Assembly (NCBI GenBank): GCA_030280995.1
Contig: JASXTE010000012.1
Span: 13,180,001-13,244,000, forward strand
Direction of reading: 5' to 3'
DNA: 64,000 bases
From: Hemileia vastatrix
Taxonomy: Eukaryota; Basidiomycota; Pucciniomycetes; Pucciniales; Zaghouaniaceae
The position numbers and the translations under genes are program-made. Under the pieces are notes generated by a model, which had not been told where the DNA came from, did not search any database, and was given only the letters and a program-made list of their open reading frames with translations. Shown here in pieces: positions 14,501 to 54,112 of the stretch (position 1 is its first letter; every line of letters starts with the position of its first letter).

Positions 14501-17500
14501 ATGAAAGTTTCATTTCCTCTTTAACTAATCCCAGTTCATGTGACCCATGAGCAAAGGCCATAGGAAAAGATTTTATCAAGTTAATGATGGAATCTTTATC
14601 CTCACAAGAAAGTTGTTCTCCAAAAGAGGCATTGTCAATTTCAGACATAAGGGCATGCATTTCCTTTGTAGATCTTCCTTTATATTGAACCACAGAATTA
14701 CATGTGTTCAATTCTGGTTTTAATAATTTTTTAGGGGAGGAAATTTTAAATTTTCTCTTCCCATTCAACCCCATTGTGAAACATTGGTTTGAAGGATCCA
14801 ATTTTATGCCATACTTGGTTAAAATATCATTCCCTACAATAAACCAATTGCTCAAGTTATCATTTTTCATGACAAAAAAATCACAAATAGCTCTTACAAA
14901 ACCATGGTTATATTTAAAAAACACTGTGGCTTTGTATTTACCAATGGGGGACAAAACAGAGCCATACCCTCTCCAATTTTCAGAAATGATAGGCAACAGT
15001 TTAGATTTATAGTCTTGATCTACTGAGGCAAGTGATCTTTCAGATACTACACTTCCACCAGCTCCAGAATCCAGAACAACTTCAATGCTGGTTCCATTAA
15101 TCAAAACTGGTGCCTTAAGAGGGGCAATAACAATTGAGTTATCCTCAATGTTCTTTATGATCTCAGCATCCTCAACTGTAGATAAATCATTATTATCAAT
15201 GTCAATAGTATTTAAATAATGAATATCTTCTTCCAGCATCAAGATTTCTTGTTGAGATTCATATGAAATATTGCTGGCACAATCACTTGATGTATCATCC
15301 AGTGCCACTGTGTCATCAGCATGCTCCTCTGTTTGTTCCACAAGATTTATCTTCTTGTCACAAACATGGCCTTTCTGCCAAGGCTTGTTGCACTTGAAGC
15401 AAGTGTTTGTTGCATACTTCTTTGGTGCAATAGGGGCAGAAGGTTTACCAACCTTTTCCAGAGGTTTTTGTTGGTAAGTGGAGGGTTTCTCCAAAGGGGT
15501 CCTAGGAATGAATCTTCTTGCATCATACTTATTGTTTAGAAGTATCTCATTGCAAGTATTAATGAAAGAAGAGGGTTCTTTGGAGAACTCAGTCCTAGCC
15601 ACAATCAAGTCTCTCAGAGACATTGGTAATTTATAGAGGATCCTGTCCTTCCATAAATCAAACTCCATATTTGGGTCCATTGCCCTTAAGATTTTTACAA
15701 GTTTCATTAAAAACTCAATAGGTTTATCAGTAGAAGAGCTATATCTAGTTTCCTCATACTGCCTTTGTTGAGCCATTCTGAACTTGGAGCCACCAAATTG
15801 TGCTTTAATTAATTTCTTCCAATCCTCCCATGAATAGTCATTCCCATCCAGGAGAACAGATTCATACCACATCAGGGCAAAATTAGTGAACAAAGAAATT
15901 AATTTGGACACAATTTCCTCATCTGGGAGTTTGTAAGAATTTTTTAAATTATCAATTCTGTAAATAAATTGCTGCCAATCAGAGGAAGAATCACCATCAA
16001 ATGTTGGGTACTGGTCAAGTTTTGGCCAATTCTTTTTATTTGAAGGAGTCTCCTTAGTACTAGCTTGTTTCTGAGTAAGAAGCAGCTGTAATTTCTCTAA
16101 TTGTGCTGAAATCTCATTGTTTAATCCTTCTGTTGCAGATCCTGGTGCATCATCAGTTTTTGATGGAAACTCAGTGTTATCAACAGGTATTTCTGGATCA
16201 ATTTTTATTTTAGATGAACTAGCCACAGGTACTGGTTGAGAATCCTGCACTATATGCTCCTTCACAGAATTGTCAGAATATTTTTGGTCATTTAACAATG
16301 AGTTCAATGTTTCTTCAATGGTTGTTAGTCTTGTTTTCATTCTTGGAAGACTAGATAAACTTTCATTGACAGTTGCAAAAGATAATTGATTTTTATGTTG
16401 AAAAGCTGACAACTGGTCACTCAATCTTTTCAGATTTATCTTATCTATCTCTACCTCCTGGCAACAGGCAGATACAGTATCTTTTAGTTTAGACAAATCA
16501 TTTTTTATATTTTGCCATAAAGCAATTTTCTTTTCATGGGTTGCTTTGTAATGAGACAATTCATCAGAGACTCTCTGTGCTTCACTTTTTAATGCTTGAT
16601 AACCCTGATCAGTTAACAAACTATTATATCTCTGAGTCAATTGCATATTGTTCATTATATGATTTTGCTTGGCAATAATATCTCTCAAGTGCTCATCATT
16701 AATTATTGCTACATCCGGAGTGTTTCTCAATAAGGAAACTGAGTAACTTTCCAGACTCTCATAGAACTCAGGGTCAAGAGTTTCATCAATCACAGCCATA
16801 TCAGGATTAATTATTGAGGTAGCAATTAAAAGTAATGGATTGGATACATGAGATAACTGTCTACTATTCCCAGCCTCTATAGGTCTCAAGGTTTCATCTT
16901 GCCTTCCAGATTTACCTGAAGGAACAGAGTCAGCCACAAGAAAAGGCACTTGAGAATCAATAGAGGGACGTACCAGGGTTTGCTGGGTATCACCATATTG
17001 GGCTTCCTTCTTCTTTTGCCTCCTTGATAAGGGTGGGGAGGAGTGGGGTTTGCCTGGGTGGGCCTTGATGGACCTACCTGAGGTAATTGATGCTGATTTT
17101 GAGCTAAGTAGTCCCACTGTGTGTTGAGCCAGTCCCACTGCCACTTGGACACTTCTACCATCTCTTGGGATTGGGGAGCCAATTGTTGTTGATCCCTGGG
17201 AGGAAGAGGTTTCCTTTTCTCTTGGAGAGAAGTATTTTTTCTTTTCTCCCATTCTTCCAAGGCATCTACCCTTACCTTTAGTTTTAAGCTGTCTTTCTTT
17301 AACTCCTTTATGTGGGTTGACAGATTCTTTATCTGCTGGGACAACGGCATCTTTTTTATCTTGAAGCCTCTTGGAAGCTCTTCTGGTGGGTTTGTCCTGG
17401 GTTTCTGATCCTGAGTATTGTCCACTAGGATTTCTACTTCTTCCATTTCCACATCCTGTTTGGGGCAAGGATTTATTAGTTTGAGAAATTCTTCTTGTTA

Positions 17501-17585
17501 AAGGAGAACTTACAGAAGTAGGCTCATCATAATCAATTAAGTCTAGTTCTTCTTCACGTGCAGTAAAACCACTTTGATCAGTCAT
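11562..17585 (-). CDS. Gag-Pol polyprotein of element D (2007 aa, intact)
   Basis: One uninterrupted frame encodes every protein needed for retrotransposition. Rough residues: coiled-coil Gag N-terminal half 300-470; Gag core 515-690 (LDQYPTFDGDSSSDWQQF); zinc knuckle near 730 (CFKCNKPWQKGHVC, the CxxC..W..GHxC variant); aspartic protease near 842 (LDSGAGGSVVS); reverse transcriptase with YIDD near 1193; RNase H near 1340 (LYTDASFIGLG); integrase zinc domain near 1588 and catalytic core with MDFVTGLP, ISDRDPKF and GLAERM; GPY/F-like VGPFVVRRM; and a C-terminal chromodomain-like segment near 1958 (EYLLRFKNKSSEYDSW). Chromodomains typically direct integration to heterochromatin. The N-terminal 200 residues are low-complexity and overlap another gene. 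The start is the first ATG after the leader and is shared with the spliced product. Confidence 0.97.
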   Translation of the reverse strand: MTDQSGFTAREEELDLIDYDEPTSVSSPLTRRISQTNKSLPQTGCGNGRSRNPSGQYSGSETQDKPTRRASKRLQDKKDAVVPADKESVNPHKGVKERQLKTKGKGRCLGRMGEKKKYFSPREKETSSSQGSTTIGSPIPRDGRSVQVAVGLAQHTVGLLSSKSASITSGRSIKAHPGKPHSSPPLSRRQKKKEAQYGDTQQTLVRPSIDSQVPFLVADSVPSGKSGRQDETLRPIEAGNSRQLSHVSNPLLLIATSIINPDMAVIDETLDPEFYESLESYSVSLLRNTPDVAIINDEHLRDIIAKQNHIMNNMQLTQRYNSLLTDQGYQALKSEAQRVSDELSHYKATHEKKIALWQNIKNDLSKLKDTVSACCQEVEIDKINLKRLSDQLSAFQHKNQLSFATVNESLSSLPRMKTRLTTIEETLNSLLNDQKYSDNSVKEHIVQDSQPVPVASSSKIKIDPEIPVDNTEFPSKTDDAPGSATEGLNNEISAQLEKLQLLLTQKQASTKETPSNKKNWPKLDQYPTFDGDSSSDWQQFIYRIDNLKNSYKLPDEEIVSKLISLFTNFALMWYESVLLDGNDYSWEDWKKLIKAQFGGSKFRMAQQRQYEETRYSSSTDKPIEFLMKLVKILRAMDPNMEFDLWKDRILYKLPMSLRDLIVARTEFSKEPSSFINTCNEILLNNKYDARRFIPRTPLEKPSTYQQKPLEKVGKPSAPIAPKKYATNTCFKCNKPWQKGHVCDKKINLVEQTEEHADDTVALDDTSSDCASNISYESQQEILMLEEDIHYLNTIDIDNNDLSTVEDAEIIKNIEDNSIVIAPLKAPVLINGTSIEVVLDSGAGGSVVSERSLASVDQDYKSKLLPIISENWRGYGSVLSPIGKYKATVFFKYNHGFVRAICDFFVMKNDNLSNWFIVGNDILTKYGIKLDPSNQCFTMGLNGKRKFKISSPKKLLKPELNTCNSVVQYKGRSTKEMHALMSEIDNASFGEQLSCEDKDSIINLIKSFPMAFAHGSHELGLVKEEMKLSLSCPLTDIPPSLKKKPYPASPTKRKDIEDNISTLLKMNIIEKVVETPKYCVISPVLISYEKDKARLCGDYRALNTYTVDDIYPLPRISSIHATLKGAKYISCLDGNKGYHQVPVEKNSQNFLMIATHMGIYKYIRMPFGPKNAPSVFQKVMDNTFHQEIIEGWLMVYIDDIIIFSKTFEDHLKHLCKVFQKMDEINMTLALKKCKFGFHSLKLLGHVVSGLQICVDQNKVAAIQQVKAPTTVRELQSFLGMCGYYRQYIKNYQVIALPLTQLTRKDVAFVWNSERQRAFDTMKHCLMSAPILALPDFDQPFVLYTDASFIGLGAALHQKQVINDEVSEVVICYISRTLRNSELKYGATQLECLAVVWALEKLHYYLDDQKFELVTDCSAVKSLLNLKTPNRHMFRWQLAVQEYRGRMTIIHRAGIGHSNVDMLSRLPLPNDDSNPAYDPEDEIIHIHGIYVVDMEEELLQLILESYDKDTYLKKLCTILNDPKNASIQALIKTLPPKYQKGLEKGKFSIDEGYLYYRRKLSNVIVIPPSMKEIILKICHDDILAGHFDLDKTMIRIKNTALWANMSEDTKLYVESCDSCQKSKRLTGKRAGLMQHIEPPDAPWQIINMDFVTGLPVAGKDSYNSCWVIVDRFTKMCKFIPTHKDVSTKELAFLWWSHMFNTAGFPKAIISDRDPKFTSEFWMTLLDFCGCDLKLSTAHHPQTDGLAERMIQNLEDMIRRYCAFGLEYKDNDRFTHDWVTLLPGLEFAYNSTVHSVTQRKPFELWLGYVPNTPAQILNNKIPKLDIHPGVKSFLQMQQLCRNHAQKCIEKSFEYEKKRWDKSHKEYTFKKGDEVLISTVHFNLQGNNKLKDPFVGPFVVRRMIGDNAVEVILYSPYDRKHPVFPISLLKPYTSNSDLFPRRRGRPKKTPNEITETAEIEKILNDRIVTAEKGTEYLLRFKNKSSEYDSWIPGKEISNLPTLLKKYKKKKS
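16973..17585 (-). CDS. Overprinted spliced accessory protein of element D
   Basis: Exon 1 (17585-17514) encodes the first 24 residues of Gag-Pol. A 58-nt intron (17513-17456; GTAAGT donor, CTAAT branch-like site, AACAG acceptor) then shifts the frame, because its length is 3n+1. Exon 2 (17455-16974) reads DVEMEEVEILVDN and continues with a conserved block (LPRGFKIKKMPL, QQIKNLSTHIKELK), a probable coiled coil, KWQWDWLNTQW, HPYQGGKRRRK and a terminal KPW. A second candidate intron (16973-16916, 58 nt, GTACGT..CTGAC..TTCAG) would make the next codon a stop (TG|G TAA), giving about 185 aa; unspliced, the frame runs on to 16886. Homologous proteins exist in F and C. The function is unknown; the basic patch could be a nuclear localisation or RNA-binding signal (inference). 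Confidence 0.72.
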
Positions 17586-19464: not shown

Positions 19465-19483
19465 TAAGGGGTGGGTATCACCA

Positions 19484-20286: not shown

Positions 20287-20363
20287 GTATAATTTAATTC
20301 TCCGTAGTTCTCATTCTTTGCACTACTACGTCCCTTTTCAGGTGTTTTCTCTAAATTCTTAAA

Positions 20364-28512: not shown

Positions 28513-28626
28513 CTCCCTCACCCCAAAAAAACAATAAAAAAAATGTTAAGACATTTTAATTAATCTTAAGGAATGAAATAAAAAGTAAAAAATAATTTTT
28601 ATAATACATATACTGAATGAACAGTA

Positions 28627-29390: not shown

Positions 29391-31676
29391 AATGATTTTA
29401 ACATCCTCAAAATTCATTAAAGATTCATTTGAGTCTATATTTAATATTGGATTGTAAAAGATGGACAAATCATCTTCCAACATACAGACTTCATTTTCAT
29501 CACTATATGAGATATTACTGTCATAATCACTTGAATCATTACTCTTTTCTACTTCATTTTCAGATTCATGTTGATTTTCAACAATATTTATGTTTTCCTC
29601 ACATTTGTGACCTTTAACCCAAGGTTTGTTACACTTATAACAAGTATTTGTTTCATACTTTTTAGGTACTACAGGTGCAGTAGGTTTTTTCTGCTTCTCC
29701 TGAAGTGTTTTTGAATTCTGATTTTTTACAGGTTCAACATTTTGTTTATAAGTGGAATACCTTGATTCATACTAATGGTTCAATAATATTTCATTGCAAA
29801 TATTAATAAAGTCAGAATATTCAGTAACATTTAATGTTCTAGCTACAACAATGTCTCTGACAGATATAGGTAATTTGTATATTATCTTATCTTTCCATAA
29901 GTTAAAATCCATATGAGGCTCAATGGCTTTTAATATTTTGTTTAAATTCATTAAAAATACCATAGGTTTGTCACCATTCAACGGATTATACCTAGTCTTC
30001 TCATACAGTCTTTGCTGAGTAAGCCTGAATTTAGAACCTCCAAATTGTTTTTCAATAAGTTGTTTCCATTCAGCCCAAGAGTAGTCTCTACCCTCACTTA
30101 AGACAGCTTCAAACCATAATAAAGCAACATCCTTAAATAAAGAAATTAATTTTGATGTTATCTCTTCATCTGGTAACTTATATGAGAATTTCAAGTTGTC
30201 AATTCTTTGAATAAAATGTTGCCAATCAGAGCTGGCTTCCCCATCATAAGTTGGGTACTGATCTATTTTAGGCCAGTTCTTCTGATTGGATTTTATCTCA
30301 CTAATCTTAGGTAAATTCAACAACTCATTTACTTTTGATAAATGGTCTTGTATTTCTTCCTGCACGGATTTGTGACTTACATTTTCAGATTTGACACTAC
30401 CACCAGATGGTTTTAATTGTGGTGGTACAGGGAAGGAATGAGATTCACTTTTGCCAATGAAAGGATTATTATTATATTGATTATACTTATGATTATCCTG
30501 GTTCATTAGTAGATTGGCAGTTTCAATCTCAACTTTAGTTAATCTTTGTAGCAGCTCAGAGACACTTTGATTTGTCTGTGCAAAAGATAACTTTGTTCTT
30601 GATTCAGTTTTTAATAAGTGTGTTTCATATAATTTTTCTAACTCACAAAATTTGTTTGAAAGGTCATTATATTTATTACTCAATGAATCATATTTAAGAG
30701 TTAGAGACAAATGTTCTTTCTGTAATTCTTTATTACGTGTTGCTAATTGAGAAATGTTCAATGTTAAGGATGAAATTGTATCACTAGTGAGCTTAACTGT
30801 CTGTTCCTCACAATCAGTCATTCTATTCCACAATGCTGAAACAATTCTATGGACAGTTGGATTATTATTAAAATATTCCATGTCCTCCTTTTCAATTCTC
30901 TCACTCTCCTGTGAACTTCTCATCTCACTAGTAGGTGGTTGCAACTGAGGATTAACTGTATTATCATTGTATATAGTACTGTTATTATGGACAAAAGACA
31001 AGTCAGGTGTATCTACTCTAAAACCTAAATTTCTTAAATCCTCCTCTATTTTTTGTACAGATTTAACATCAATAGAATTACCTATATTGTAATTATCAGT
31101 ATTATGTCTAATCTGAGAGGGTAAGTTACTTACCAAGGGATGGTTGCCAGTCCTGATTTTTGGCGCTTTTTTCCCTTGTAAGGGTGAGCTGAGGAAGTCA
31201 GATGAGGGGGTGGATCCCTGTTGCAACTGTGGCTTGTCCACTGTTGGTGAAACCAGTCCCATTTCCATTTGTCTACCAGGATTTTCTCCTGGGAGTGAGT
31301 GGACCCTCCTTGGGTAGGGGGTTGCTGATTTGATTGACTGGGCTGGCCTCCCTTTAATTCTGCCATTGCCTGATTCATCTGCTGAAATCCTACCTTGCAA
31401 TTGTTTTGCAACTGCTCTACTTCTTTGAACATGAGAGATTTTGATTCCTCTAGCTTCAGAACCTGTTTGGCCAGGTGGGACAGTTGATCCTGAAGAGGAG
31501 GAGACGTCTTTTTGATAGTTATCTTTTTTAAGAGGGTGTCCTTTTCCTCTATACTCATGCTTTCTGGCTGGGGGTACTGTTGTCCCTCCATGGTGATGTC
31601 CTGGAAAGTTTTTATTAGCTTTAGACCTGGTATTATAAGCAGGCTGTTCACTTACACTATCCTGAGGAGCACTCAT
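29391..31676 (-). CDS. Gag of element C (634 aa open) plus zinc-knuckle remnant
   Basis: The open frame 31676-29772 starts MSAPQDSVSEQPAYNTRSK. It has a low-complexity N-terminal third, a coiled-coil middle (about 300-400) and the Gag core (LDQ/IDQYPTYDGEASSDWQHF near residue 490), then stops at 29772-29774. Beyond the stop the same frame continues through CYKCNKPWVKGHKC to the deletion point near 29390. The product could assemble particles but lacks the nucleic-acid-binding knuckle unless the stop is read through. It shares its ATG with the overprinted spliced gene. Confidence 0.88.
31133..31676 (-). CDS. Overprinted spliced accessory protein of element C
   Basis: Exon 1 (31676-31656) encodes seven residues shared with Gag. 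A 55-nt intron (31655-31601; GTAAGT donor, GCTAAT branch-like site, TTCCAG acceptor; 3n+1) shifts the frame to DITMEGQQYPQPESMS. Exon 2 contains LLKKITIKK, a long coiled coil (QLSHLAKQVLKLEESK), KWKWDWFHQQW, HPYKGKKRQK and ends IPW at 31133. Total about 163 aa. The stop is supplied by the TAA within TGGTAAGT, itself a second donor; a 52-nt intron (31133-31082; ACTGAT branch-like, ATATAG acceptor) would also give W-stop. It shares motif order with D and F although sequence identity is low. Confidence 0.68.
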
Positions 31677-32186
31677 ATTGTTCAGAATAAAAATATTTTA
31701 CGTCTACAAAAGGAAAAAACTCTGTGGAATTAGTAGAAAAATAATATTAGCAATTATTTATTAATAAAAAAGCAATGGAGCTTACCCTGAATTTATATCT
31801 TTATTTATTTAAATAAAATATAAGAAAAATTCGAAAAAATCTGTTAAAAATATAATAATAAGTTTAACTAGACCTCTATAAGGGTGAATAATTAGCTTAC
31901 CAAGCTTTAGCCAAATACCAATTTTATTGGGTGTTATATTGGTGTCCAAATACCAAGTGAAATTGGGTTTATATTGGGTACAGTTACTACTGTAAATATC
32001 TAATTTTTATAATAAAAAATTAGTACAATTATTATAAGGGTTCTTTTCCGCAATCAATGAGCTATGATGACCCACTAATATGCCGCAGACCCAAATATTT
32101 GGTTAATTTTGAGTTGTACTAAGGTAAAAATCACGTCCCAAGGCTTATACTAAATAATAAGTAAAATATAAGGAAAGACCCCCAAT
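31677..32186 (-). other. 5' leader of element C
   Basis: No ORF. It contains two copies of a block with CCAAATACCAA followed by ATTGGGT..TATATTGG (31912-31980) and, directly inside the LTR, ATTGGGGGTCTTTCC on the coding strand, which matches the equivalent positions of D and F (candidate primer-binding region). Confidence 0.6.
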
Positions 32187-40063: not shown

Positions 40064-40138
40064 GTATAATTTAATTCTCCGTAGTTCTCATTCTTTGGCA
40101 CTACGGCGTCCTTTTTTCAGGTGTTTTAAATTCTTTAA

Positions 40139-41078: not shown

Positions 41079-41325
41079 ACCCACGGACAACTCAATCCAA
41101 ACCCAATAAGGGAAAGGACAAACCTCAACCAAAAGGCTTGACCCCAGGCAATATCAGTAAGGTACTGCACTCAAAAGGGGAAGTTAAAGAAGCTGAGAGG
41201 AAGAGGCAAGCAGATAATGGGTTATGTACGTATTATGGGGGTAAGAACAAGCTAGAAGATTTTGTAAAGTTGAAGGAAAGAGAAGGTACTAGTTCAAGGT
41301 CAAAAAACTAGTAGATAGTTTACTT

Positions 41326-44300
41326 GTGTGCAAAGAAAACCATCTTATCTCTCCCAGTGAACAGAACCTCAATGTCTTAAGGACTGAAGTTGCCTTAAAC
41401 CTCTTGAGATTCATTCTTTTCAAGGAGGAGACCCCCTTCAGTTGTCTCATAGACTCTGGAGCTTCAATTTATTTTGTCAGTTTATCTTTTTCAGAGAAGT
41501 TAAAGCTGACATTCAAAGATATCGATCAAACTCCTATTTAATTTTTCAAATCAGAGGAACCCAAATATTGGGTAAGTAAGAAAGTTTTATGGGTTTTCAA
41601 CTTTCCAAAATATCCCCACTTTGAGTGGGAATTATCAGTCTTTGATGCCCCAAGAATGGAAGATACCATCCTTGGCCATGACTTTTTAATGCATTGGAAT
41701 CCTGAAATTGATTGGTCACAGGGATTGATCACCCCACGTACTAAGTATATTTCTAATTCTTCAACGCAGGTCAATAGGGAGTTAAACAACCCGCCTGACA
41801 ATGTCCTGCTAGAGGACAAATCTCTTCCAGATGACTTGCAAGCATCTGATCTTTCTCTAAATGAGCAATCGGCTAACCCTTCTAGCTCAATCACTTCACT
41901 CAAAGAGGATTTAATTTGCCTCAAAGTAGTAAAATTATCCTCTCTCAATTCTGGTCTTCCCTCAACATATTCTTTGAAGAAGATGAGGATGACCAAATCA
42001 ACATTGAAGCCATTAAATCAACTCTACCAAAAATCTATCACAATTTCCTTGATGTTTTCTCAATCTGGAAGGCAGATAAGTTACCACATCATTTACCCTA
42101 CGACCATCAAATAGAGTTAATAGGTCCATTACCTCTGGCAGGTCCTGTCTATTCTTTATTGAAGGACAAATCGCAAGTTCTTCAAGACTACATTGCAAAA
42201 AATGTTGCCAAAAGTTTCATCAGAGCCAGTAAATCTCCAACCAGATCCCCTGTTCTTTTTGTAAAGAAAAAAGATGGTAGCCTTAGGTTGTGTGTTGACT
42301 ATAGAAAGCTCAACACAGTTAAAAAGAAGAATGCATATCCTGTCCCTCCTATGTCATTGATTCTTACCCTTTTTAATGGTGCTAATTTCTTTTCTAAAAT
42401 TGATCTTAGAGGCGCTTATAATCTTATTTGCATTGCAGAAGGTCATGAACCACTGACTGAAATGCGCACTATATTTGGTGGTTTTGAATATTTAGTAATG
42501 CCTTTTGGATTATGTAATGCACCAACTACTTTTCAAACTTTTGTTAATGACATCTTCCAAGATGTTGTCGTCTATTTAGATGATATTTTAATTTTCTTGA
42601 AGACACTAGATGAACATATTCATCATGTTCAACAGGTTCTAAATCAACTTCTAGATCACGGTCTCTACGCCAAGCACAATAAATGCAAATTCCATCTTAA
42701 ATCAATCGATTTTTTTGGGTTTTACGTTGTCCACTGATGGTTTAGTCATGGACAACAAAAAGGTCCAAAAAGTCCTGGAATGGCCTAAGCCCAAAACCAT
42801 TAAATCCCTCCAAGGATTTTTGGCTCTTGCCAATTTCTATAGAATATTTATTAAAGATTACTCCAAAACTATTTCCTATCTTACTTCTCTTCTTAGAAAA
42901 GATATTCCTTTTGTTTTTACTCCTACAGCACAAAAGGAATTCAAAGCATTGAAGACTGCATTTACCACAGCTCCAATTCTTTGTCACTTTCATCCTTCTG
43001 CTTCGACAATAGTCAAGACAGAGGCTAGCAATTATGCTATCGCAGGGGTCAGTTCTCAATTCAATCCTGAAACAAAATTGCTTCATTCTGTTGCTTTCAA
43101 GTCACACAAACTCATTGCAGCAGAATTAAATTACGAAATTCATGAAAAGGAGCTTTTAGCTATTATTCAATGGTTTAAAAAATGGAGCTCTTTTCTTCTC
43201 AGCTTAGATAGTCCTTTTCAAATTATGACTGACCATAATGCTTTGAAATACTTTATGTCTTCCAAAGTGTTAACCAGGCATCAAGCCAGGTAGGCTGAAT
43301 TTCAGTCTGAATTTACTTTTTCTATTTCATATTGCCCAGGTAAGAACTGCATTGTCCCAGATATCTTGTCATGTCGGGACGACGTTTACCCACAGCGGGG
43401 GGATGAATTTTCTGACAAGAACCCAGCAAATGTGAAATCAATTTTCAATGAATCATTGTTAACAACTCATCATCTTAATTCAATGACAATTCAATCTTTC
43501 CAAAATCCACTATCCAACATCCTCGAAGCTCAGTCAAAGGAGGATTATTGTTTAGGGTTAAAAGACAAAATACTCTCAAAGCAGGGGGCTAAAAGATTTA
43601 GTATTGAATCAGGTCTATTAGTTTTTGAAGGTAGAGTAGTCATACCCAACAACAATGAAATAAAATTATGGATTTTCAATAGTCAACATGATTCTCCATT
43701 AGCTGGTCATTTTGGGGTTGATAAAACCTACCAGTTAATTGCAAGGGATTTCTTCTTGCCAAGAATGACCAGAGAAATCAAGGCCTATATAAGATCTTGT
43801 TATGAATTTAATAGGAATAAAGCTCCCCGTCACCGGAAGCATGGGTTGCTTCAGCCGCTTCCTATTCCCTCTAAACCTTGGGAATCTTTATCAATGGATT
43901 TTATTTCTCAACTTCCTCTTTATAATAATTTTGATGTTATATTAGAAATAGTAGATAGATTTTCAAAGATGTCTATTTTCATTAAAACCACTACTACTGC
44001 TAAAGCAGAAGATTTGTCATAATTGTTTCTAGAATATGTATTTTCCAAACATGGCTTACCTAATGATATTATTTCAGATAGAGGCTCATTGTTTGTATCC
44101 ACATTCTGGACTCAATTGTGTTTACAACTCAATATCACGAGGAATCTCTCCACGGCCTATCACCCTGAAACGGACAGTCAAACGGAAAGGTTCAACCAAA
44201 TCCTCAAACAATACCTTCGAATGTATGTCAGTTACCAACAAGACAATTGGACCACATGGTTACCATTGGCAGAATTTGCTTAAATAACTCGACTCATTCT

Positions 44301-44942
44301 TCAACACAACAATCTCCTTTTGAAACTGTTTATGGAAGACATCCTCTATTCAACTCAATCCATGTAGGAACTAGTCATCCTGCTGAACATTATCTTCAAA
44401 CCATATCACGACTCCAAGAAGAACTTAAATCAAATTTGGAATTAGTGATTCAAAGGTACAAGGAACAGGCCAACAAACATTGACAATCTGCTCCTTCTTT
44501 TAAACCAGGTGACAAAGTATGGCTTGACACAAAAAACATTCAAACAACTCTACCATCAAAGAAACTGGCTGAAAAACGCTTGGGATCATTCGAAATTGAC
44601 TCCAAAGTCTCTAAAACTGCATTTCAACTCAAGCTACCTCCTAAATGGCAGGATACTTACCCTGTTTTCCATGTATCTCTCCTGGAACTGGCTCGAGAAA
44701 CATACCTGGGCAGGAACCAACCTCCTCCAGAACCAGTTGAAGTAGAAGACCATCTAGAGTGGGAAGTAAGATATATCCTTGATTCAAGAATGCGCAAGGG
44801 GAGACTTCAATACCTTGTAGAATGGGAAGGCTTCCTCAATGATTCAGACAAAACATCCTTGGAACCAGCCATCAATGTTTCTAACGCCCCTGAGCTCCTA
44901 AAATCTTTTCATCTTAAATATCCTTTAAAACAAAAACCTTAG
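41326..44942 (+). pseudogene. Pol of element E
   Basis: Protease (CLIDSGASIYFVS), RT (KDGSLRLCVDYRKLN, MPFGLCNAPTTFQ, VVVYLDD with a few residues missing just before it compared with B), RNase H (MTDHNALKYFM), integrase ([47 protein letters not shown]) and chromodomain (WEVRYILDSRMRKGRLQYLVEWEGF). Frameshifts near 41540-41650, 41940, 42720 and 44280, and stops near 43291 and 44020. The final TAG overlaps the AGAAC target site of F. Confidence 0.92.
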
Positions 44943-44945
44943 AAC

Positions 44946-46085
44946 TGTCGGCCGGTCGTCTAGAAGAAGGAGAAAAATAGAAGAAGGACTGAGAGGAGGA
45001 GAAGGAGGAAAGGAGTATGGGTAAATAAAAAATAAAATTTAATAAAATTATTTAATTTATTGAGAGAAAAACAACGATAATTGAGCTGGGAGGTGACAAC
45101 AACTTGGTTTTATTAATATTAATATTATTTAAGTAAGAGTTCTGCGCGGCAACCAAAATAATTACTATCAGACTTAGAGCAACCTTTAAATTGTTATATA
45201 AATTTTTAATTAGAATTTTATTACTAATAAAAAGAATATAAACGTAATATAAAAATTGTATTTAAATTGTTGAGTGTATAATAAGTGATAAGGCTACAGG
45301 GGATTATCCAAGGCCCTTTTATAGGCAATGGGTCCTCTGAAGCACTATTATATCAGTAAATACAATGATTAGAAAGGAATAAAACAAACATATCAAAAGA
45401 GTAACTGAAACATAACAATATAGAGAAAAACATGAAACAATTAATTAAAAGCCCAATTAAGAATCCAATTTCCCCGCCATTAATCCCCAAATCAGTAAGT
45501 GACAATAGTAAATAACTAAACAAGAGTGGAAACATAGGAACTATGAGAAATATAATTCCCAACAGATGGTACATCCTGATTAGAGGACATTTTAAGTGAA
45601 ACAAAAAATAATTTGACGCAACAAAACAAGCAATTAATCTCAATTTAGTTCAAATTAATTTATTTGTTTTTTCTAACACCATTAAGGGTCAAAAGAAGCG
45701 TCCTTAATAATTGTTTAGTATCATATGAGAGGTATTAGTTAATATATAAATTTAAGTAATTAATTTAAATATATTATAAATCAAATTTACACTTGTAATT
45801 ATAATATATGTTTTTTAATTAATTAAATATAAATTTATAATTATTAAATATATAAAAATGCGCCATTATTTGTAGAATATATTATATTATGCTCAATTTA
45901 ATTGTATATAAAAATATATATAACCAATAAATTTAATGTAACATTTGTATATAATAAAATTCTTATATAATTTCATTATGTAATAAAATATTAAGTTATA
46001 TTCATTAAATACAAGTCTTACCCACTTTTTAAGGTTTTATAATTTATATATCATTTACTGGACTCCTGGAATAGCCTGGCTGACA
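44946..46085 (-). repeat. 3' LTR of element F
   Basis: Coding-strand start TGTCAGCCAGGCTATTCC, end GACCGGCCGACA. Polypurine tract AGAGTGAGGGAG at 46086-46097 (minus strand). Confidence 0.95.
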
Positions 46086-46119: not shown

Positions 46120-49100
46120 CTAAGATTTTTTCTTTTTGTATTTTTTCAACAGAGCAGGCAGATTTGAAATTTCTTTGCCAGGTATCCATGCATCATGTTC
46201 AGATGATTTGTTCTTATATCTCAATAAATATTCAGTACCTCTTTCAGAAGTGATAATTCTATCATTGAGAATTTTATCAATTTCTGCTGTTTCTGTGACT
46301 TCCTGAGGGTTCTTCTTAGGTCTTCCTCTTCTTTTTGGAAATAAGTCACTGTTGGAAGTATAAGGTTTAAGCAAAGAAATGGGAAAGACAGGATGTTTCC
46401 TATCATATGGAGAATACAATACAACTTCTACTGCATTATCACCAACCATTCTTTTAACAACAAATGGTCCTACAAATGGATCTTTTAATTTGTGGTTACC
46501 TTGTAAATTGAAATGGACAGTAGAGATCAACACTTCATCACCCTTGTTAAATTTGTATTCTTTATGGGATTTATCCCATCTTTTCTTTTCATATTCAAAT
46601 GCTTTATCAATACAACTCTGAGCATGTTTTCTGCATAGCTGTTGCATTTGCATAAAAGATTTTACACCAGGGTGTAGTTCCAACTTAGGTAATTTATTAT
46701 TGAGAATTTGAGCAGGAGTGTTTGGGACATAACCTAACCAAAGCTCAAAAGGCTTTTTCTCAGTGACAGAATGAACAGTGCTATTATATGCAAATTCAAG
46801 ACCAGGCAAAAGAGTGACCCAATCATGAGTAAATCTGTCATTGTCTTTATATTCTAAACCAAAGGCACAATACCTTCTAATCATATCTTCCAGAGTTTGA
46901 ATCATTCTTTCAGCTAGACCATCAGTCTGAGGATGGTGAGCTGTAGACAATTTTAACTCACAGCCACAAATATCCATCAAAGAGGTCCAAAACTCAGAAG
47001 TGAATTTTGGATCCCTATCAGAGATAATGGCTTTTGGAAAACCAATAATATTAAACATGTAAGACCACCATAAGAAAGCTAATTCCTTGGTGGATACATC
47101 TTTGTGGGTTGGAATAAATTTGCACATTTTTGTGAATCTATCAACTATTACCCAACAAGAGTTAAAGCTGTCTTTACCTGCAACAGGAAGACCAGTGACA
47201 AAATCCATATTAATGATTTGCCAGGGAGCACTAGGTGCTTCAATATGTTGTAATAACCCTGCTCTCTTACCTGTTAACCTTTTAGATTTTTGGCAGGAAT
47301 CACAAGATTCAACATATAATTTTGTGTCTTCAGACATATTAGCCCACCATGCAGTGTTTTTGATTCTAATCAATGTTTTTTCAAGATCAAAATGACCAGC
47401 TAATATGTCATCATGACAAAGTTTGAGGATAGTTTCTTTCATTGAAGGAGGAATAACAATTACATTGGTAAGCTTCCTTCTATAATAAATATAACCATCT
47501 TCAATAGAAAACTTTCCTTTATTTAAAGCATTTTGGTATTTTGCAGGAAGAGTTTTTATTAATGCTTCAATTGAAGCATTCTTAGGATCATTCAAAATAG
47601 TAACTAATTTATTTAAGTCAGAATCTTTATCATATGAATCCAGTATTAACTGTAATAACTCTTCTTCCATATCAACTATAAATATACCATGTATATGAAC
47701 AGTGTCATCCTCAGGTACATAAGCAGGATTGGAGTCATTATTTGGCAGAGGCAATCTGGAGAGCATATCAACATTAGAGTGAACATTTCCAGCTCTGTGG
47801 ATAATAGTGATCCTTCCTCTGTATTCCTGAACCGCAAGTTGCCACCTGAACATATGTCTGTTAGGTGTTTTGAGGTTTAAGAGAGATTTCACAGCACTAC
47901 AGTCAGTTACCAACTCAAATTTTTGGTCATCCAAGTAGTAATGAAGTTTCTCAAGAGCCCAAACAACTGCTAAGCACTCTAATTGAGTGGCACCATATTT
48001 CAATTCACTATTTCTTAAGGTTCTTGAAATAAAACAAATTACAACCTCTGAGGATTTATCATTAATAATTTGCTTTTGGTGAAGGGCAGCACCCAGACCA
48101 ATAAAGCTAGCATCTGTATAAAGTACAAATGGCTTGTTAAAATCTGGGAGAGCCAATATAGGGGCTGTCATTAAGCAATTTTTCAATGTATTAAAAGCTT
48201 TCTGACAGTCATCATTCCAGAGAAAAGCAACATCTTTTCTGGTTAGTTTTGTAAGAGGCAAGGCTATGACCTGATAATTTTTAATATATTGTCTATAATA
48301 GCCACACATACCTAAAAAACTTTGGATTTCTCTTACAGAAGTTGGTGCTTTCACATTTTGAATGGCAGCAACTTTATTATGGTCTACACAAATTTGTAAG
48401 CCTGACACAACATGGCCAAGGACTTTCAAAGATTGAAAACCAAATTTACACTTTTTTAAAGATAAGGTCATATTGATTTCATCCATTTTTTGGAAAACTC
48501 TATTTAAGTGAATCATATGTTCATCAAAAGTTTTAGAAAAAACAATAATATCATCAATATAAACCATGAGCCAACCTTCAATAATTTCTTGATGGAAAGT
48601 GTTATCCATGACTTTTTGGAAAACTGAAGGAGCATTTTTAGGGCCAAATGGCATCCTAACATACTTATATATTCCCATATGAGTAGCAATAAGCAAAAAA
48701 TTTTGAGAATTTTTCTCAACTGGAACTTGATGATAACCTTTATTACCATCCAGACAACTAATAAATTTTGCACCTTGCAAGGTAGCATGTATTGAATTAA
48801 TTCTGGGTAAAGGATAAATATCATCAACAGTATAAGTATTTAAAGCTCTGTAATCTCCACATAATCTAGCTTTATCTTTTTCATAAGAAATTAAGACTGG
48901 GGAGATGACACAATATTTGGGGGTGACATCCACTTTCTCAATGATATTCATTTTCAATATTGTTTCAATATTATCTTCAATATCTTTTCTTTTTGATGGA
49001 GAAGCAGGATATGGTTTTTTCTTAAGGGAAGGAGGAATATCACTCAAATTACAGGATAAGGTAATTTTCATCTCTTCCTGAACAATTCCCAAGACATGAG

Positions 49101-52100
49101 AACCATGAGCAAAAGCCATAGGGAAAGAGGTAATAGAGGAAACAATAGAATCCTTTTGTTCATTAGTCAAATGATCACCAAAAGAAGCGGTATTTATTTC
49201 ATGTAATAAATCATCCATTTCAGTTGTTGTTCTACCTTTACATTGGGTCAGTGAGTTACAAGATTTCAACAAATGCCCAGAAGGTTTAGGAGAAGAAATT
49301 TTGAATTTTCTTTTCCCATTCATTCCTAAGGTAAAGCAATTATTTGCTGGGTCTAGTTTCACACCAAACATGGTTAAAATATCATTTCCCATAATAAACC
49401 AATTGCTCAAATTATCATTTTTCATGACAACAAACTCACAAATAGCTCTGACAAAACCACCATTATATTTGAAGAATACAGAGGTTTTGTATTTGCCAAT
49501 AGGAAATAAGGTAGAACCATACCCTCTCCATTTTTCAGAAGTTATAGGCAATAATTTACTTAAATATTCCTTATCCACTGAAGCCAAAGCTTTTTCAGAT
49601 ACTACACTTCCTCCAGCACCAGAATCAAGAACTACATCAACATTTTTACCATTAATGATAACAGGTGCCTTTAAAGGGGATATAGGAATAGAGTTGTTAG
49701 TAATATCTTTAATTATCTCAGCATTTTCTACTGAAGATAAATTCAATACACAATCTTCAGATATATTATTTAAATAATGGACATCATGTTCTAACATTAA
49801 AACATCTTTAACAGATTCATTGTCATAGGAGATATTACTTTCACAGTCACTGGAAGAATTATTGACATCAAGTTCAATTTCATCAGTGTCTTCATTTTGT
49901 TCAACAAGATGAATTTTCTTGTCACAAACATGACCCTTCTGCCACGGTTTGTTACATTTATAACAAGTATTTGTTGCATATTTTTTAGGTGCAACTGGGG
50001 CAGAGGGTTTACCAGATTTTTCTGGGAGCTTTATAGAAGGTTTATTCTGATCATTATAAGATTTACTAAGGTAATTCTTTTGTTCATATCTATGGTTGAG
50101 TAGTACTTCATTACAGATATTAATGAAAGAAAAATTTTCCCTTACATGCTCAGTTCTAGCAACAATCAAATCCCTAAGAGAATTTGGTAATTTATACAAG
50201 ATTTTATCTCTCCAAATATCATAATCCATCTTTGGATCAATTGCTCTAAGGATTTTAGTTATTTTCATCAGAAAAACAATGGGCTTTTCAACAGAGGAGG
50301 ATACATATCTAGTATTCTCATACAGTCTTTGCTGAGCTAACCTGAATTTTGAACCACCAAACTGATTCTCAATCAAGGATTTCCAATCATTCCATGTATA
50401 ATGATTGTTATCTAAGAGGACAGATTCATACCACATCAAGGCTACATTGGAAAATAAAGAAATTAGCTTAGAAACAATTTCCTCATCAGGTAGTTTATAA
50501 GATCTCTTTAAATTATCAATTCTTTGGATAAAGTGTTGCCAATCAGAGGAAGAATCACCATCAAAGGTAGGATATTGGTCTAACTTAGGCCAATTTTTCT
50601 GACTACTGGGATGGTCCATTTTTTGGTTTGAATTATTCATTAGTAATAATTCCTGAAGTTTAGCCAGGTGTTCAGAAATTTCATTATTTACAGAAACAGC
50701 TGGTGCATGACCATCACAAGATTTTTTGCTAGTAGCAAAAGATTTTACAGACTCATTGTCAGTTTGTTTAATGGTTGAAATATGAGGAAGAAAGGATGAA
50801 CTTTGTTCAGGTTTTTTCCCTTTATTTTTATGCAGCTTACTGGCAGAAATATCATTTAATTCATTATTGATGGTTAAGGTTGAGAACTTTTCCTGTAGGT
50901 CAGACACATAGTTTCTTATTCTTGGAATTTCAGACATCTGGTCATTCACTTTTGCAAGAGATAGAACATTTCTGTCCTCAGAAACGGAGTGTTTGGTACT
51001 TAGTGCATGGAAGTCATTTTTTAGTTTCTTCAACTCATTTTGTAGAGATTTTATTTCATTTTTGAATGAATAATTTTCCTCAATAAGGGGTTTCAATTCA
51101 CTCAATGTGTTATGCAGACTGATATTTCTATTTGAGATAGCTCTATGGTCACTTCTTATTTGTTTTTGTTGACTAAGAACAATATTCAAGGTTTCTTTGA
51201 TTTTTAAATAAGCTGTATCTTGTACAGAAGAACTCACTCTACATTGCAAGTGTAAATTATTTAATCTATCATTTTCATGGATTAACACATCTCTCACATG
51301 TTTGTCTTTCACAATATTAAAATCAAGGGTATCTTTCAAAATTTCCTCAGAAGTTTTTTCAATTAAGTTATAGATTTCAGGGGGAACAGAATCATTTTTA
51401 ATTGCAAGAGAAGGATTAATTAAAGATGTAGAAGTTAAATGTAAAGGTTCATCAAATGACAATTTGCTAATTACATCAATAGGGCTACTAGTTACAGGAA
51501 GCTGTCTTTTAACAGGTTTAACTGTTCTTTCACCATGTTCAATAATATTACCTGCAGAAGAAGATTTATTAGAAAACATACCCAAGTGACTATCAACCAA
51601 ATTACTTACCATGGCAGAGGAGGAAACTTCCCCTGGGACTGGGTTTGGGATTGTGCTTGGGCCTTCTTTCTCCTGCTTTGTTGGTAGGGATGAGGAGGTG
51701 GATGGAAATTGGGTGTTCTGGATGGGCCAGGCTGATGATGAGGAGGGTGTTGCACATTCTGTTGGTAGTGACTCATTAGATAATCCCATTTCCATTGCTC
51801 TACTTCCATAGTATTTGGATTTTGGATGGTTGAGCTGGGTGGCTGTGAAGGTTGAGCCTGAAATTGAAGCTGATTGGGAGGCAATTGAGGAGGGGCCTGG
51901 GCCTGAATCTGGTTCCTGAGTTCTTGGACCTGATCCCACAATGTGTCTACCTTTGCTTTGTACGTCATATTTTCTGTCTTCAACTCTTTTATATGACTGG
52001 AGAGGTTGCTGATTTGTTGTGGCAGAGGAAGCTTTTTTATTTTGAAGCCTTTTGGAAGACCTTCTTGAGGCACTAGAGGCTTTACTTCCTTCTGTGGTAC

Positions 52101-52287
52101 TGGGGGAAGGGGGTTTGGTTTGTTTGCATTTCCTGTCATTTCCACATCCTGCAGTATGAGAATTCTTTGTGTTAGCATAAGATTTTTTATGACCAACTTT
52201 AGAAGAACTTACAGTGTCAGCATCATAGTCAATTTCTATCTCATCCACTTGCATGTTATCCATTTTTTCTGTCAAATTGTTGGACAT
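46120..52287 (-). CDS. Gag-Pol polyprotein of element F (2055 aa, intact)
   Basis: Same architecture as D. Low-complexity N-terminus overlapping another gene; coiled coil (about 330-480); Gag core near 560-740 (LDQYPTFDGDSSSDWQHF); knuckle near 774 (CYKCNKPWQKGHVC); protease near 887 (LDSGAGGSVVS); RT YIDD near 1242; RNase H (LYTDASFIGLG); integrase (GHFDLEKT, CDSCQKSKR, MDFVTGLP, ISDRDPKFTSEFW, GLAERMIQ); GPY/F-like VGPFVVKRM; chromodomain-like tail YLLRYKNKSSEHDAW. All expected catalytic residues are present. Gag and Pol are in one frame without frameshift or stop, so their ratio must be set otherwise (for example by proteolysis, or by the splice event described next). Confidence 0.97.
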   Translation of the reverse strand: MSNNLTEKMDNMQVDEIEIDYDADTVSSSKVGHKKSYANTKNSHTAGCGNDRKCKQTKPPSPSTTEGSKASSASRRSSKRLQNKKASSATTNQQPLQSYKRVEDRKYDVQSKGRHIVGSGPRTQEPDSGPGPSSIASQSASISGSTFTATQLNHPKSKYYGSRAMEMGLSNESLPTECATPSSSSAWPIQNTQFPSTSSSLPTKQEKEGPSTIPNPVPGEVSSSAMVSNLVDSHLGMFSNKSSSAGNIIEHGERTVKPVKRQLPVTSSPIDVISKLSFDEPLHLTSTSLINPSLAIKNDSVPPEIYNLIEKTSEEILKDTLDFNIVKDKHVRDVLIHENDRLNNLHLQCRVSSSVQDTAYLKIKETLNIVLSQQKQIRSDHRAISNRNISLHNTLSELKPLIEENYSFKNEIKSLQNELKKLKNDFHALSTKHSVSEDRNVLSLAKVNDQMSEIPRIRNYVSDLQEKFSTLTINNELNDISASKLHKNKGKKPEQSSSFLPHISTIKQTDNESVKSFATSKKSCDGHAPAVSVNNEISEHLAKLQELLLMNNSNQKMDHPSSQKNWPKLDQYPTFDGDSSSDWQHFIQRIDNLKRSYKLPDEEIVSKLISLFSNVALMWYESVLLDNNHYTWNDWKSLIENQFGGSKFRLAQQRLYENTRYVSSSVEKPIVFLMKITKILRAIDPKMDYDIWRDKILYKLPNSLRDLIVARTEHVRENFSFINICNEVLLNHRYEQKNYLSKSYNDQNKPSIKLPEKSGKPSAPVAPKKYATNTCYKCNKPWQKGHVCDKKIHLVEQNEDTDEIELDVNNSSSDCESNISYDNESVKDVLMLEHDVHYLNNISEDCVLNLSSVENAEIIKDITNNSIPISPLKAPVIINGKNVDVVLDSGAGGSVVSEKALASVDKEYLSKLLPITSEKWRGYGSTLFPIGKYKTSVFFKYNGGFVRAICEFVVMKNDNLSNWFIMGNDILTMFGVKLDPANNCFTLGMNGKRKFKISSPKPSGHLLKSCNSLTQCKGRTTTEMDDLLHEINTASFGDHLTNEQKDSIVSSITSFPMAFAHGSHVLGIVQEEMKITLSCNLSDIPPSLKKKPYPASPSKRKDIEDNIETILKMNIIEKVDVTPKYCVISPVLISYEKDKARLCGDYRALNTYTVDDIYPLPRINSIHATLQGAKFISCLDGNKGYHQVPVEKNSQNFLLIATHMGIYKYVRMPFGPKNAPSVFQKVMDNTFHQEIIEGWLMVYIDDIIVFSKTFDEHMIHLNRVFQKMDEINMTLSLKKCKFGFQSLKVLGHVVSGLQICVDHNKVAAIQNVKAPTSVREIQSFLGMCGYYRQYIKNYQVIALPLTKLTRKDVAFLWNDDCQKAFNTLKNCLMTAPILALPDFNKPFVLYTDASFIGLGAALHQKQIINDKSSEVVICFISRTLRNSELKYGATQLECLAVVWALEKLHYYLDDQKFELVTDCSAVKSLLNLKTPNRHMFRWQLAVQEYRGRITIIHRAGNVHSNVDMLSRLPLPNNDSNPAYVPEDDTVHIHGIFIVDMEEELLQLILDSYDKDSDLNKLVTILNDPKNASIEALIKTLPAKYQNALNKGKFSIEDGYIYYRRKLTNVIVIPPSMKETILKLCHDDILAGHFDLEKTLIRIKNTAWWANMSEDTKLYVESCDSCQKSKRLTGKRAGLLQHIEAPSAPWQIINMDFVTGLPVAGKDSFNSCWVIVDRFTKMCKFIPTHKDVSTKELAFLWWSYMFNIIGFPKAIISDRDPKFTSEFWTSLMDICGCELKLSTAHHPQTDGLAERMIQTLEDMIRRYCAFGLEYKDNDRFTHDWVTLLPGLEFAYNSTVHSVTEKKPFELWLGYVPNTPAQILNNKLPKLELHPGVKSFMQMQQLCRKHAQSCIDKAFEYEKKRWDKSHKEYKFNKGDEVLISTVHFNLQGNHKLKDPFVGPFVVKRMVGDNAVEVVLYSPYDRKHPVFPISLLKPYTSNSDLFPKRRGRPKKNPQEVTETAEIDKILNDRIITSERGTEYLLRYKNKSSEHDAWIPGKEISNLPALLKKYKKKKS
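51609..52287 (-). CDS. Overprinted spliced accessory protein of element F
   Basis: Exon 1 (52287-52213) encodes 25 residues shared with Gag-Pol (acidic end DEIEIDYDADT). A 64-nt intron (52212-52149; GTAAGT donor, ATGCTAACAC branch site, CTGCAG acceptor) is 3n+1 and moves translation to DVEMTGNANK. Exon 2 then reads LPKGFKIKKLPLPQQISNL, SSHIKELK, a coiled coil, a Gln/Pro-rich linker, QWKWDYLMSHYQ, HPYQQSRRKK and ends PLPW, stop at 51606-51608. Total about 205 aa. In the block shared with D, 22 of 27 residues are identical in this frame, against about 12 of 31 in the overlapping Gag frame, which argues for selection on this frame. A second 58-nt intron (51609-51552) would also end the protein at W-stop. 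Confidence 0.75.
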
Positions 52288-52972
52288 ACTAGTGGGAAGA
52301 TTAATATTTTACTTTGTACTTTATAAAAAAAATAATCAAAGATAGTCAATAATTTGCTCCAAATAATATAAGAAAATTTTTTAATTAATTAAATTATAGA
52401 AAAAATAACTTTCAATATAAAGTAATAATTAAAAAATTAAAAAAAATGGATTGCAAGTTTAAATTGGGAATAACAATTTAGTTAATTCAACCAATTAATT
52501 ACCAATATTAAATAAGGCAATATATTGGGACTAAGCACAATGTACTTTTAAGTCAACCAAAAATTAACAATAATTAATAATAAAAAAAAAATTAAATTAA
52601 TAATTCAATTTGTATTAATAATAATGTCAATTCTTCTAGGACTAAGAGGATTTAACACTCTATAATGGTCAACTAGGAAAAAAAAATTTTTTAAAAATTG
52701 AACACTTACACTCAGTGAATCAGCAATTAAGCCACAATCACTGTTATTGCAATAAAAATATAGTAATATGAGTGAGAGGCGCAAAGGTGAACTTACTATA
52801 GTGATCGAAAAATCACTTCAAAATAATATAAAAATTAATATTATATAAACCTAATATGTCGAACCCAAGTTCGAAACACAGTCGCGGCAAAAGTTTCGTT
52901 TTGCTAGGTGGTCCGTGCGTTTTGTCGTTCGTCGCCAGGCTTCGATCGTCGTCGTTTGGAAAGGCCCTCAGT
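52288..52972 (-). other. 5' leader of element F
   Basis: AT-rich, non-coding. It shares with D a block of the form GGACTAAGA..CTCTATnATG followed by GTCAAC and AGGAAAAA (52637-52685 here, 18235-18280 in D). A tRNA-end-like segment lies at 52868-52889, and ACTGAGGGCCTTTCC (coding strand) sits next to the LTR. Confidence 0.6.
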
Positions 52973-54112
52973 TGTCGGCCGGTCGTCTAGAAGAAGGAGA
53001 AAAATAGAAGAAGGACTGAGAGGAGGAGAAGGAGGAAAGGAGTATGGGTAAATAAAAAATAAAATTTAATAAAATTATTTAATTTATTGAGAGAAAAACA
53101 ACGATAATTGAGCTGGGAGGTGACAACAACTTGGTTTTATTAATATTAATATTATTTAAGTAAGAGTTCTGCGCGGCAACCAAAATAATTACTATCAGAC
53201 TTAGAGCAACCTTTAAATTGTTATATAAATTTTTAATTAGAATTTTATTACTAATAAAAAGAATATAAACGTAATATAAAAATTGTATTTAAATTGTTGA
53301 GTGTATAATAAGTGATAAGGCTACAGGGGATTATCCAAGGCCCTTTTATAGGCAATGGGTCCTCTGAAGCGCTATTATATCAGTAAATACAATGATTAGA
53401 AAGGAATAAAACAAACATATCAAAAGAGTAACTGAAACATAACAATATAGAGAAAAACATGAAACAATTAATTAAAAGCCCAATTAAGAATCCAATTTCC
53501 CCGCCATTAATCCCCAAATCAGTAAGTGACAATAGTAAATAACTAAACAAGAGTGGAAACATAGGAACTATGAGAAATATAATTCCCAACAGATGGTACA
53601 TCCTGATTAGAGGACATTTTAAGTGAAACAAAAAATAATTTGACGCAACAAAACAAGCAATTAATCTCAATTTAGTTCAAATTAATTTATTTGTTTTTTC
53701 TAACACCATTAAGGGTCAAAAGAAGCGTCCTTAATAATTGTTTAGTATCATATGAGAGGTATTAGTTAATATATAAATTTAAGTAATTAATTTAAATATA
53801 TTATAAATCAAATTTACACTTGTAATTATAATATATGTTTTTTAATTAATTAAATATAAATTTATAATTATTAAATATATAAAAATGCGCCATTATTTGT
53901 AGAATATATTATATTATGCTCAATTTAATTGTATATAAAAATATATATAACCAATAAATTTAATGTAACATTTGTATATAATAAAATTCTTATATAATTT
54001 CATTATGTAATAAAATATTAAGTTATATTCATTAAATACAAGTCTTACCCACTTTTTAAGGTTTTATAATTTATATATCATTTACTGGACTCCTGGAATA
54101 GCCTGGCTGACA
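52973..54112 (-). repeat. 5' LTR of element F
   Basis: 1140 bp, essentially identical to the 3' copy. Presumed promoter for the minus-strand transcript. AGAAC duplication follows at 54113. Confidence 0.95.

Follow-up and report, generated by a model that had tools for sequence, protein, structure and literature searches.

A 64,000-nucleotide (nt) stretch of the Hemileia vastatrix genome (GenBank assembly GCA_030280995.1, contig JASXTE010000012.1, positions 13,180,001 to 13,244,000; hereafter the window, whose own numbering we use throughout) contains three elements, F, B and C, that we read, with a probability of roughly 85%, as chromodomain Ty3/gypsy retrotransposons with retrovirus-like expression from two RNAs, a spliced one giving a small accessory protein and an unspliced one giving Gag-Pol. 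The sequence itself holds introns, DNA copies of spliced RNA, two open frames over one stretch, leaders free of ATG and, for the closer of the pairs compared, an accessory frame under selection; Gag-Pol would most likely be translated from unspliced RNA and the accessory protein from spliced RNA. A chromovirus would then have splicing control like that of retroviruses, attested by dozens of genomic copies with the exact junction, and its accessory proteins would form a new small family under selection. Two frames overlap here in a clear-cut way, one with protein constraint and the other only kept open, and past splicing can be read from element copies alone.

Intron 1 and the accessory frame of element F

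The original prediction, made from the letters of the window, had placed an intron directly behind the first 25 codons of Gag-Pol and proposed that its removal leads into a different open frame of 180 codons overlapping gag. Both the intron and the frame are confirmed. The parts of element F concerned are as follows:

52213..52287, minus strand: exon 1, 25 codons common to Gag-Pol and the accessory protein, starting with the ATG at 52287
52149..52212, minus strand: intron 1, 64 nt, with no stop in the Gag-Pol frame
51610..52148, minus strand: exon 2, the accessory frame (coiled coil, WKWD, HPYQ..RRKK, PW end) lying over the Gag frame
51552..51609, minus strand: intron 2, 58 nt
46120..52287, minus strand: Gag-Pol, unspliced, 2055 amino acids, starting with the ATG at 52287 and with the chromodomain last

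Intron 1 (52212-52149) starts with the donor GTAAGT, carries CTAAC 27 nt upstream of its 3' splice site and ends in CTGCAG; its length is 3n+1, and its splicing destroys the Gag-Pol frame. Joining in silico across it gives the expected 205 codons followed by TAA, with 180 of the codons read from 52148 and a PW end at 51609, well upstream of the Gag core and of the CCHC knuckle (the latter placed by eye). The other features claimed for the product, a coiled coil (here a predicted long helix), the WKWD motif and a basic patch (RRKK), are likewise present. The stop of the accessory frame overlaps a Gag-frame ATG (ATGGTAA; window 51612-51606, GCCATGGTAA) whose start context we take to be good; this overlap is absent from B and C. 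The donor of intron 2 overlaps the tryptophan and stop codons of the accessory frame, and its acceptor is followed by GTAA, so that splicing likewise yields TGG TAA.

The GC content of exon 2 (47%) contrasts with that of the neighbouring parts (26-35%), and for this reason we considered capture of a host gene. A protein search of the host's own genome was neutral on this point, the best 150 of 17,687 candidates being without exception element-like copies of 99-100% identity.

Related elements and the second intron

A tblastn search with the spliced F frame brought up two further, divergent elements of this layout in the window, B (E 5e-22) and C (E 5e-5):

17456..17513, minus strand: intron 1 of element B, 58 nt, 3n+1
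16974..17455, minus strand: accessory exon 2 of element B, 41% identical to F in the alignment
16916..16973, minus strand: intron 2 of element B, 58 nt
31841..31900, minus strand: leader intron a of element C, 60 nt
31722..31785, minus strand: leader intron b of element C, 64 nt
31601..31655, minus strand: intron 1 of element C, 55 nt, 3n+1
31134..31600, minus strand: accessory exon 2 of element C, 26% identical to F in the alignment
31082..31133, minus strand: intron 2 of element C, 52 nt, 3n+1

Invariant columns in the exon 2 alignment of F, B and C include IKK, PL, WxWD, HPY and the final PW. Another eight copies came from 21 stretches adjoining the window, 20 of them 10 kb long and one 7.5 kb. 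The length of intron 1 (55, 58 or 64 nt) is 3n+1 in all 10 copies measured; the truncated L012 is left out of the intron 1 and codon counts, and the degenerate L024 and L010 are used only where named. Donors GTAGGT and GTGAGT occur in L020 and L023, and the oldest copies, L024 and L010, have partly lost their intron 1 signals.

In all three families the accessory frame is followed immediately by another intron (52 or 58 nt, 3n+1 in 11 of 11 copies), with GTAAGT or a near form as donor, CTRAY 18-21 nt from the end in nine of the 11 copies, and GTAA behind the acceptor in 10 (L012 has ATAA); once this intron is removed, TGG TAA remains. Short introns with such branch sites would be in keeping with a fungal host. 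For B, the PW-stop end arises only when intron 2 is removed, since the unspliced frame reads on. The scheme of an unspliced RNA for Gag-Pol and a spliced one for the accessory protein, as originally proposed, fits in its logic and in the conservation of the spliced product, but has to take in more introns than the one foreseen, namely intron 2 in F, B and C and two leader introns in C.

Spliced at intron 1 alone, the accessory frame of B (window 16973-16886) gains a hydrophobic tail, LLILKCLFLWLTLFL, before its stop; this is perhaps chance or a membrane-anchored isoform.

Genomic copies of the spliced RNA

The whole host genome (748 Mb) was searched for exon-exon junctions predicted beforehand, allowing at most three mismatches and with a reversed-pattern control. 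The intron 1 junction was found at 17 places for F (11 exact), 34 for B (5 exact) and 6 for C (3 exact), and the reversed pattern gave 0 matches in each case. At all 17 F places read, exactly 64 nt are missing between colinear flanks (L042 has further indels). Among the 21 of 34 B places that were read, 20 lack exactly 58 nt (L032 and 19 of the 20 further places), and the last, L064, has the junction and is too diverged to align. The spliced intron 2 junction of C occurs at 5 places (3 exact, control 0); three copies were read among the intron 1 and intron 2 places of this family, of which L033 lacks only intron 1, L036 only intron 2 and L037 both, with exactly 55 nt gone at intron 1 in L033 and L037. 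Splicing at exactly the predicted sites is supported by the 17 F places, and splicing at the matching sites of the B and C families by the places found for these.

For F and B, intron 2 was read only in copies located through the intron 1 junction. It is exactly gone from eight of the 17 F copies and from three of the 20 aligned B copies (L053, L054 and L060), two of which lie on the same contig and probably stem from duplication of a single locus. The C-family copy L037 lacks four introns, intron 1, intron 2 and both leader introns (each beginning with GTAAGC and finishing with ACAG), and has a 163-residue accessory open reading frame (ORF) from the shared ATG to the PW-stop end. A candidate leader intron in B, a 77-nt gap of L053 and L054, was rejected as a short repeat difference that is not GT...AG.

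Fifteen of the intron-less F copies share 89-99% identity with F. A tree of 17 intron-less and seven intron-bearing F copies (shown with no support values, its deepest intron-less branches being sampled for no intron-bearing copy) has both kinds and both splicing states interleaved, so that intron loss in the F family most likely occurred several times. The best-matching F copies retain the intron: the best 40 of 1,569 DNA candidates for the 679-bp stretch match it without a difference through intron and exons, and in 148 of the best 150 of the 17,687 protein candidates the 200-codon stretch is open just as it is in F, these being the best of longer lists and no census.

In the intron-less copies (L030-L033 and L036-L072) no single frame leads from the shared ATG through Gag-Pol; such copies may depend on mobilisation in trans or act as constant sources of accessory protein. 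The 3' long terminal repeat (LTR) of one of them, L030, was sought in L035 and was not found there. Fifteen of the 34 B places have a common exon 2 variant, GATGTAGAGATGGAAG, and are perhaps an amplified intron-less lineage.

Openness and selection in the overlapping frames

Exon 2 contains 11 stops in its third frame in F, 14 in B and 12 in C. When accessory codons were shuffled, the Gag frame stayed open in 0, 0 and 3 of 10,000 trials for F, B and C, and in 1, 5 and 3 of 2,000 synonymous shuffles; a separate F run gave 0 of 20,000 codon shuffles and 0 of 3,000 synonymous shuffles, and six copies of the three families gave 0-3 of 10,000 accessory-codon and 0-5 of 2,000 protein-keeping shuffles. 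The reverse test is weak. Shuffled Gag codons keep the accessory frame open in 87, 75 and 135 of 10,000 trials (F, B and C), and synonymous Gag shuffles do so in 497, 137 and 398 of 2,000, so openness of the accessory frame alone proves little, and its case is carried by selection and by the intron-less copies. Both frames are open over the overlap in F, L019, L020, B and C, and the Gag frame is in phase through both introns in six of 11 copies (F, L019, L020, L023, B and C).

Differences between copies are about twice as frequent at the third position of accessory codons as at the other two, with 48 of 171 in F/L023 versus 19 and 23 at positions 1 and 2, and 49 of 153 in C/L009 versus 25 and 17. 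Accessory position 2, where the Gag frame has its wobble, shows about as few differences as position 1 in both pairs, and the counts are nearly unchanged when these pairs are aligned in the Gag frame. Differences silent in the accessory frame and changing Gag number 43 in F/L023 (19.3 expected) and 41 in C/L009 (18.6 expected); those changing the accessory protein and silent in Gag number 16 (22.8 expected) and 11 (22.5 expected).

Estimates of dN/dS for each frame, an analysis suggested with the original prediction, were made on pairs of copies and favour it in the two closest, with higher accessory-frame values in more distant pairs. At kappa 2, the ratio for the accessory frame (omega_acc) is 0.34 (0.22-0.54) in F/L023 and 0.36 (0.23-0.55) in C/L009, and that for the Gag frame (omega_gag) is 1.06 (0.63-1.94) and 1.56 (0.78-3.84); with kappa from 1 to 4, the ranges for these pairs are 0.26-0.46 and 0.86-1.94. 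L023 and L009 are themselves broken copies and add neutral change to the comparisons. By these estimates purifying selection acts on the accessory frame in the two closest usable pairs, and the Gag reading over exon 2 looks like a passenger, kept open with residues that are not clearly conserved. A Gag frame kept open together with a low omega_acc suggests that the stretch must be passable for Gag, with Gag residues mattering little and accessory residues mattering. The original prediction needs a correction here, in that the amino-acid constraint falls on the accessory frame.

Leader and start codon

The internal leader of F spans the distance between its 5' LTR and the shared start codon:

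52288..52972, minus strand: internal leader of F, part of the 1128-nt ATG-less stretch before the shared start codon

The corresponding ATG-free stretches measure 1418 nt in B and 918 nt in C. Shuffled sequences are expected to hold 13.7 (F), 20.9 (B) and 12.3 (C) ATGs, and zero was reached in 0 of 500 shuffles per family. The stretch in C takes in its leader introns, which are ATG-free as well, as expected if the unspliced RNA is scanned from the cap. For F, leader introns were guessed from motifs only, and we make no claim for them.

The accessory protein

The accessory protein ranges from 163 (C) to 205 (F) residues. Structure prediction gives two helices, a confident and coiled-coil-like one at residues 42-83 of exon 2 and a less confident one that holds the WKWD motif. 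The best matches were bZIP_1 in Pfam (below the cut-off), a PDB entry at E 0.035 and a BFVD entry at E 1.7.

Expression model and alternatives

By their sequence, these elements have one transcript with optional introns. We propose that ribosomes would scan the ATG-free leader to the single shared AUG; the unspliced RNA would be translated into Gag-Pol and would also serve as the genome. Removal of intron 1 switches the Gag-Pol frame to the conserved accessory frame, removal of intron 2 ends that frame at the TGG TAA formed at the junction, and the spliced RNA would give the accessory protein. Spliced RNA entering a particle would sometimes be reverse transcribed, leaving DNA copies that record the splicing.

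Several observations weigh against this model. The first four intron-1-less copies read all retained intron 2, as do most aligned B copies, and its removal is far from universal. Fully spliced RNA would have a 3' untranslated region of more than 5 kb, the rest of Gag-Pol, and may be subject to decay. L016 has a Gag-frame stop in intron 2, and L009, L010, L012 and L024 are broken; the accessory frame has stops in the comparison copies L023, L009, L024 and L010, and in L023 the Gag frame is open with one stop in the accessory frame. The pairs used for omega were aligned in the accessory frame, and omega_acc grows with distance, reaching 0.82 (0.64-1.10) in B/C at kappa 2 and 1.07 at kappa 4; aligned in the Gag frame, B/C has its most variable position at accessory position 2, a result that thus depends on the alignment. 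The omega_gag intervals are compatible with mild constraint. The structural model of the accessory protein is of low confidence outside one helix (mean predicted local distance difference test, pLDDT, 63; predicted template modelling score, pTM, 0.27), and searches of Pfam, PDB and BFVD gave no significant family or fold match for it beyond weak coiled-coil similarity.

Alternatively, splicing could be real and serve to shut off Gag-Pol, whether for dosage or driven by the host, with the accessory peptide as a by-product. Splicing does destroy the Gag-Pol frame. Tf2 of S. pombe is a fungal Ty3/gypsy element. Host spliceosomes act on its cryptic intron (PMC7175516). We nevertheless consider the shut-off explanation unlikely, as it leaves unaccounted for the purifying selection on accessory residues, the motifs common to three families and the stop created exactly at the intron 2 junction.

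Another arrangement would have the accessory frame as ORF1, with spliced RNA also giving Gag-Pol, through a +1 shift or reinitiation at TGG TAA, and with a Gag frame that is open in exon 2 only by accident. After both splices the Gag frame does sit +1 from the accessory stop, the F stop overlaps an ATG (ATGGTAA), and Gag residues over exon 2 are without clear constraint. Openness of the Gag frame far above chance in three families, its continuity in phase through both introns in six of 11 copies, and the lack of a stop-start overlap in B and C nonetheless make such an arrangement quite improbable. Splicing of the Copia/BARE1 type, in which spliced RNA makes Gag without Pol, shares with F the small size of the intron and a spliced RNA of almost full length, as described for BARE1 (PMC3735527), but is very hard to sustain here, given that the spliced frame stops before the Gag core and CCHC knuckle and so encodes no Gag. 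To a chance open frame in a GC-rich, low-complexity stretch beside a cryptic intron we give practically no credence, for although exon 2 stands out in GC content (47% versus 26-35%) and about 1% of Gag-codon shuffles keep the accessory frame open, the protein is conserved at 41% (B) and 26% (C) identity, omega_acc is well under 1 in the closer pairs, and exact intron loss occurs in three families.

Comparison with known systems and candidate function

Complex retroviruses make accessory proteins such as Rev, Tat and Tax/Rex from spliced RNA and their structural genes from unspliced RNA; Rev of HIV exports unspliced RNA, and retroviral accessory genes mostly use acceptors far downstream. The two-RNA expression proposed for F, B and C has the same division between spliced accessory and unspliced structural messages, unlike them with introns of only 52-64 nt. 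The Tat/Rev-like logic put forward originally fits as a plan of expression; a Tat- or Rev-like function would be an analogy.

Among LTR retrotransposons, copia, BARE1, EVADE, Ogre, CRR and Cer1 have transcripts known to be spliced (PMC3735527, PMC12786077, PMC10309623). The nearest precedent is CERV of Cer1, a Ty3/gypsy element of C. elegans, which is made from a spliced mRNA with exons 1-3 in the gag frame and exon 4 in another, contains a possible leucine zipper as well as a candidate nuclear localisation sequence, and exports unspliced Cer1 RNA, from which gag-pol is made (PMC10309623). Like CERV, the F accessory protein starts in the gag frame and continues in another; unlike CERV, those of F, B and C lie wholly over the start of gag. 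The likeness is one of layout and described features, and an export role would be assigned here by analogy. BARE1 and EVADE (Ty1/copia, plants) have a small optional intron (104 nt in BARE1), a frame switch and an early stop (PMC3735527, PMC12786077), but their spliced RNA makes Gag, whereas that of F encodes a separate protein. Ogre splices between ORFs (PMC3735527, PMC12786077) and CRR removes rt (PMC3735527); these too are spliced Ty3/gypsy transcripts, but an overprinted accessory protein is not among the features described there, and in contrast to an Ogre-type intron separating two ORFs, Gag-Pol of F is one open frame without splicing. Tf2 resembles F in being spliced inside a fungal LTR element, its cryptic intron being linked to small interfering RNA and histone H3 lysine 9 (H3K9) methylation and not to an encoded protein (PMC7175516). 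The original prediction knew of no fungal counterpart, and among the open-access papers listed in our searches we found no description of a spliced overprinted accessory gene in a fungal or chromodomain element; beyond the vertebrate retroviruses, Cer1 CERV is a precedent in a Ty3/gypsy element (PMC10309623).

As a tentative function, we suggest that the accessory protein might be a coiled-coil, basic nuclear protein that binds its own unspliced RNA and aids nuclear export or escape from the spliceosome, because Rev and CERV are proteins of this kind, basic, self-associating and produced only once splicing has occurred, from genomes that must leave the nucleus unspliced. It is conceivable, though we would not presume it, that a chromovirus lineage independently evolved the plan of complex retroviruses, in which fully spliced RNA (freed of four introns in the C family) gives an overprinted, Rev- or CERV-like RNA-binding regulator that frees intron-bearing RNA for export and Gag-Pol translation, and in which reverse transcription of spliced RNAs leaves a datable record of splicing.

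Layout and class of element F, and neighbouring elements

Element F lies on the minus strand between two LTRs, with the 5-bp target duplication GTTCT present at both flanks:

52973..54112, minus strand: 5' LTR of F, 1140 nt, TG...CA, one mismatch versus the 3' LTR
44946..46085, minus strand: 3' LTR of F, 1140 nt, pairing with the 5' LTR

Its Gag-Pol comprises a Gag region with the CCHC knuckle (again, placed by eye), protease, reverse transcriptase, RNase H, integrase and chromodomain. Matches to the Pfam families RVT_1, RT_RNaseH, Integrase_H2C2 and Chromo exceed their cut-offs, rve falls slightly under (28.8 versus 32.6), and the protease match is weak and under its cut-off. On its sequence, F is a Ty3/gypsy chromovirus, having both the LTRs and the domain order of this class in a single polyprotein. 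A search of Rfam at the gathering threshold gave no match within the window.

Element C (window 27335-33363) has kept its LTRs, leader, accessory gene and gag match, and most of its pol is missing. The window also holds two copies, 88% alike, of another Ty3/gypsy lineage (19483-25164 and 39255-44946), which is about 30% identical in pol. Elsewhere, four F copies in the same orientation are spaced by exactly 8017 nt (G000:C103:4381315-4405935), resembling a tandem array, as if they shared LTRs, and an intron-less pair lies at C579:33421938 and 33430157, 8219 nt apart.

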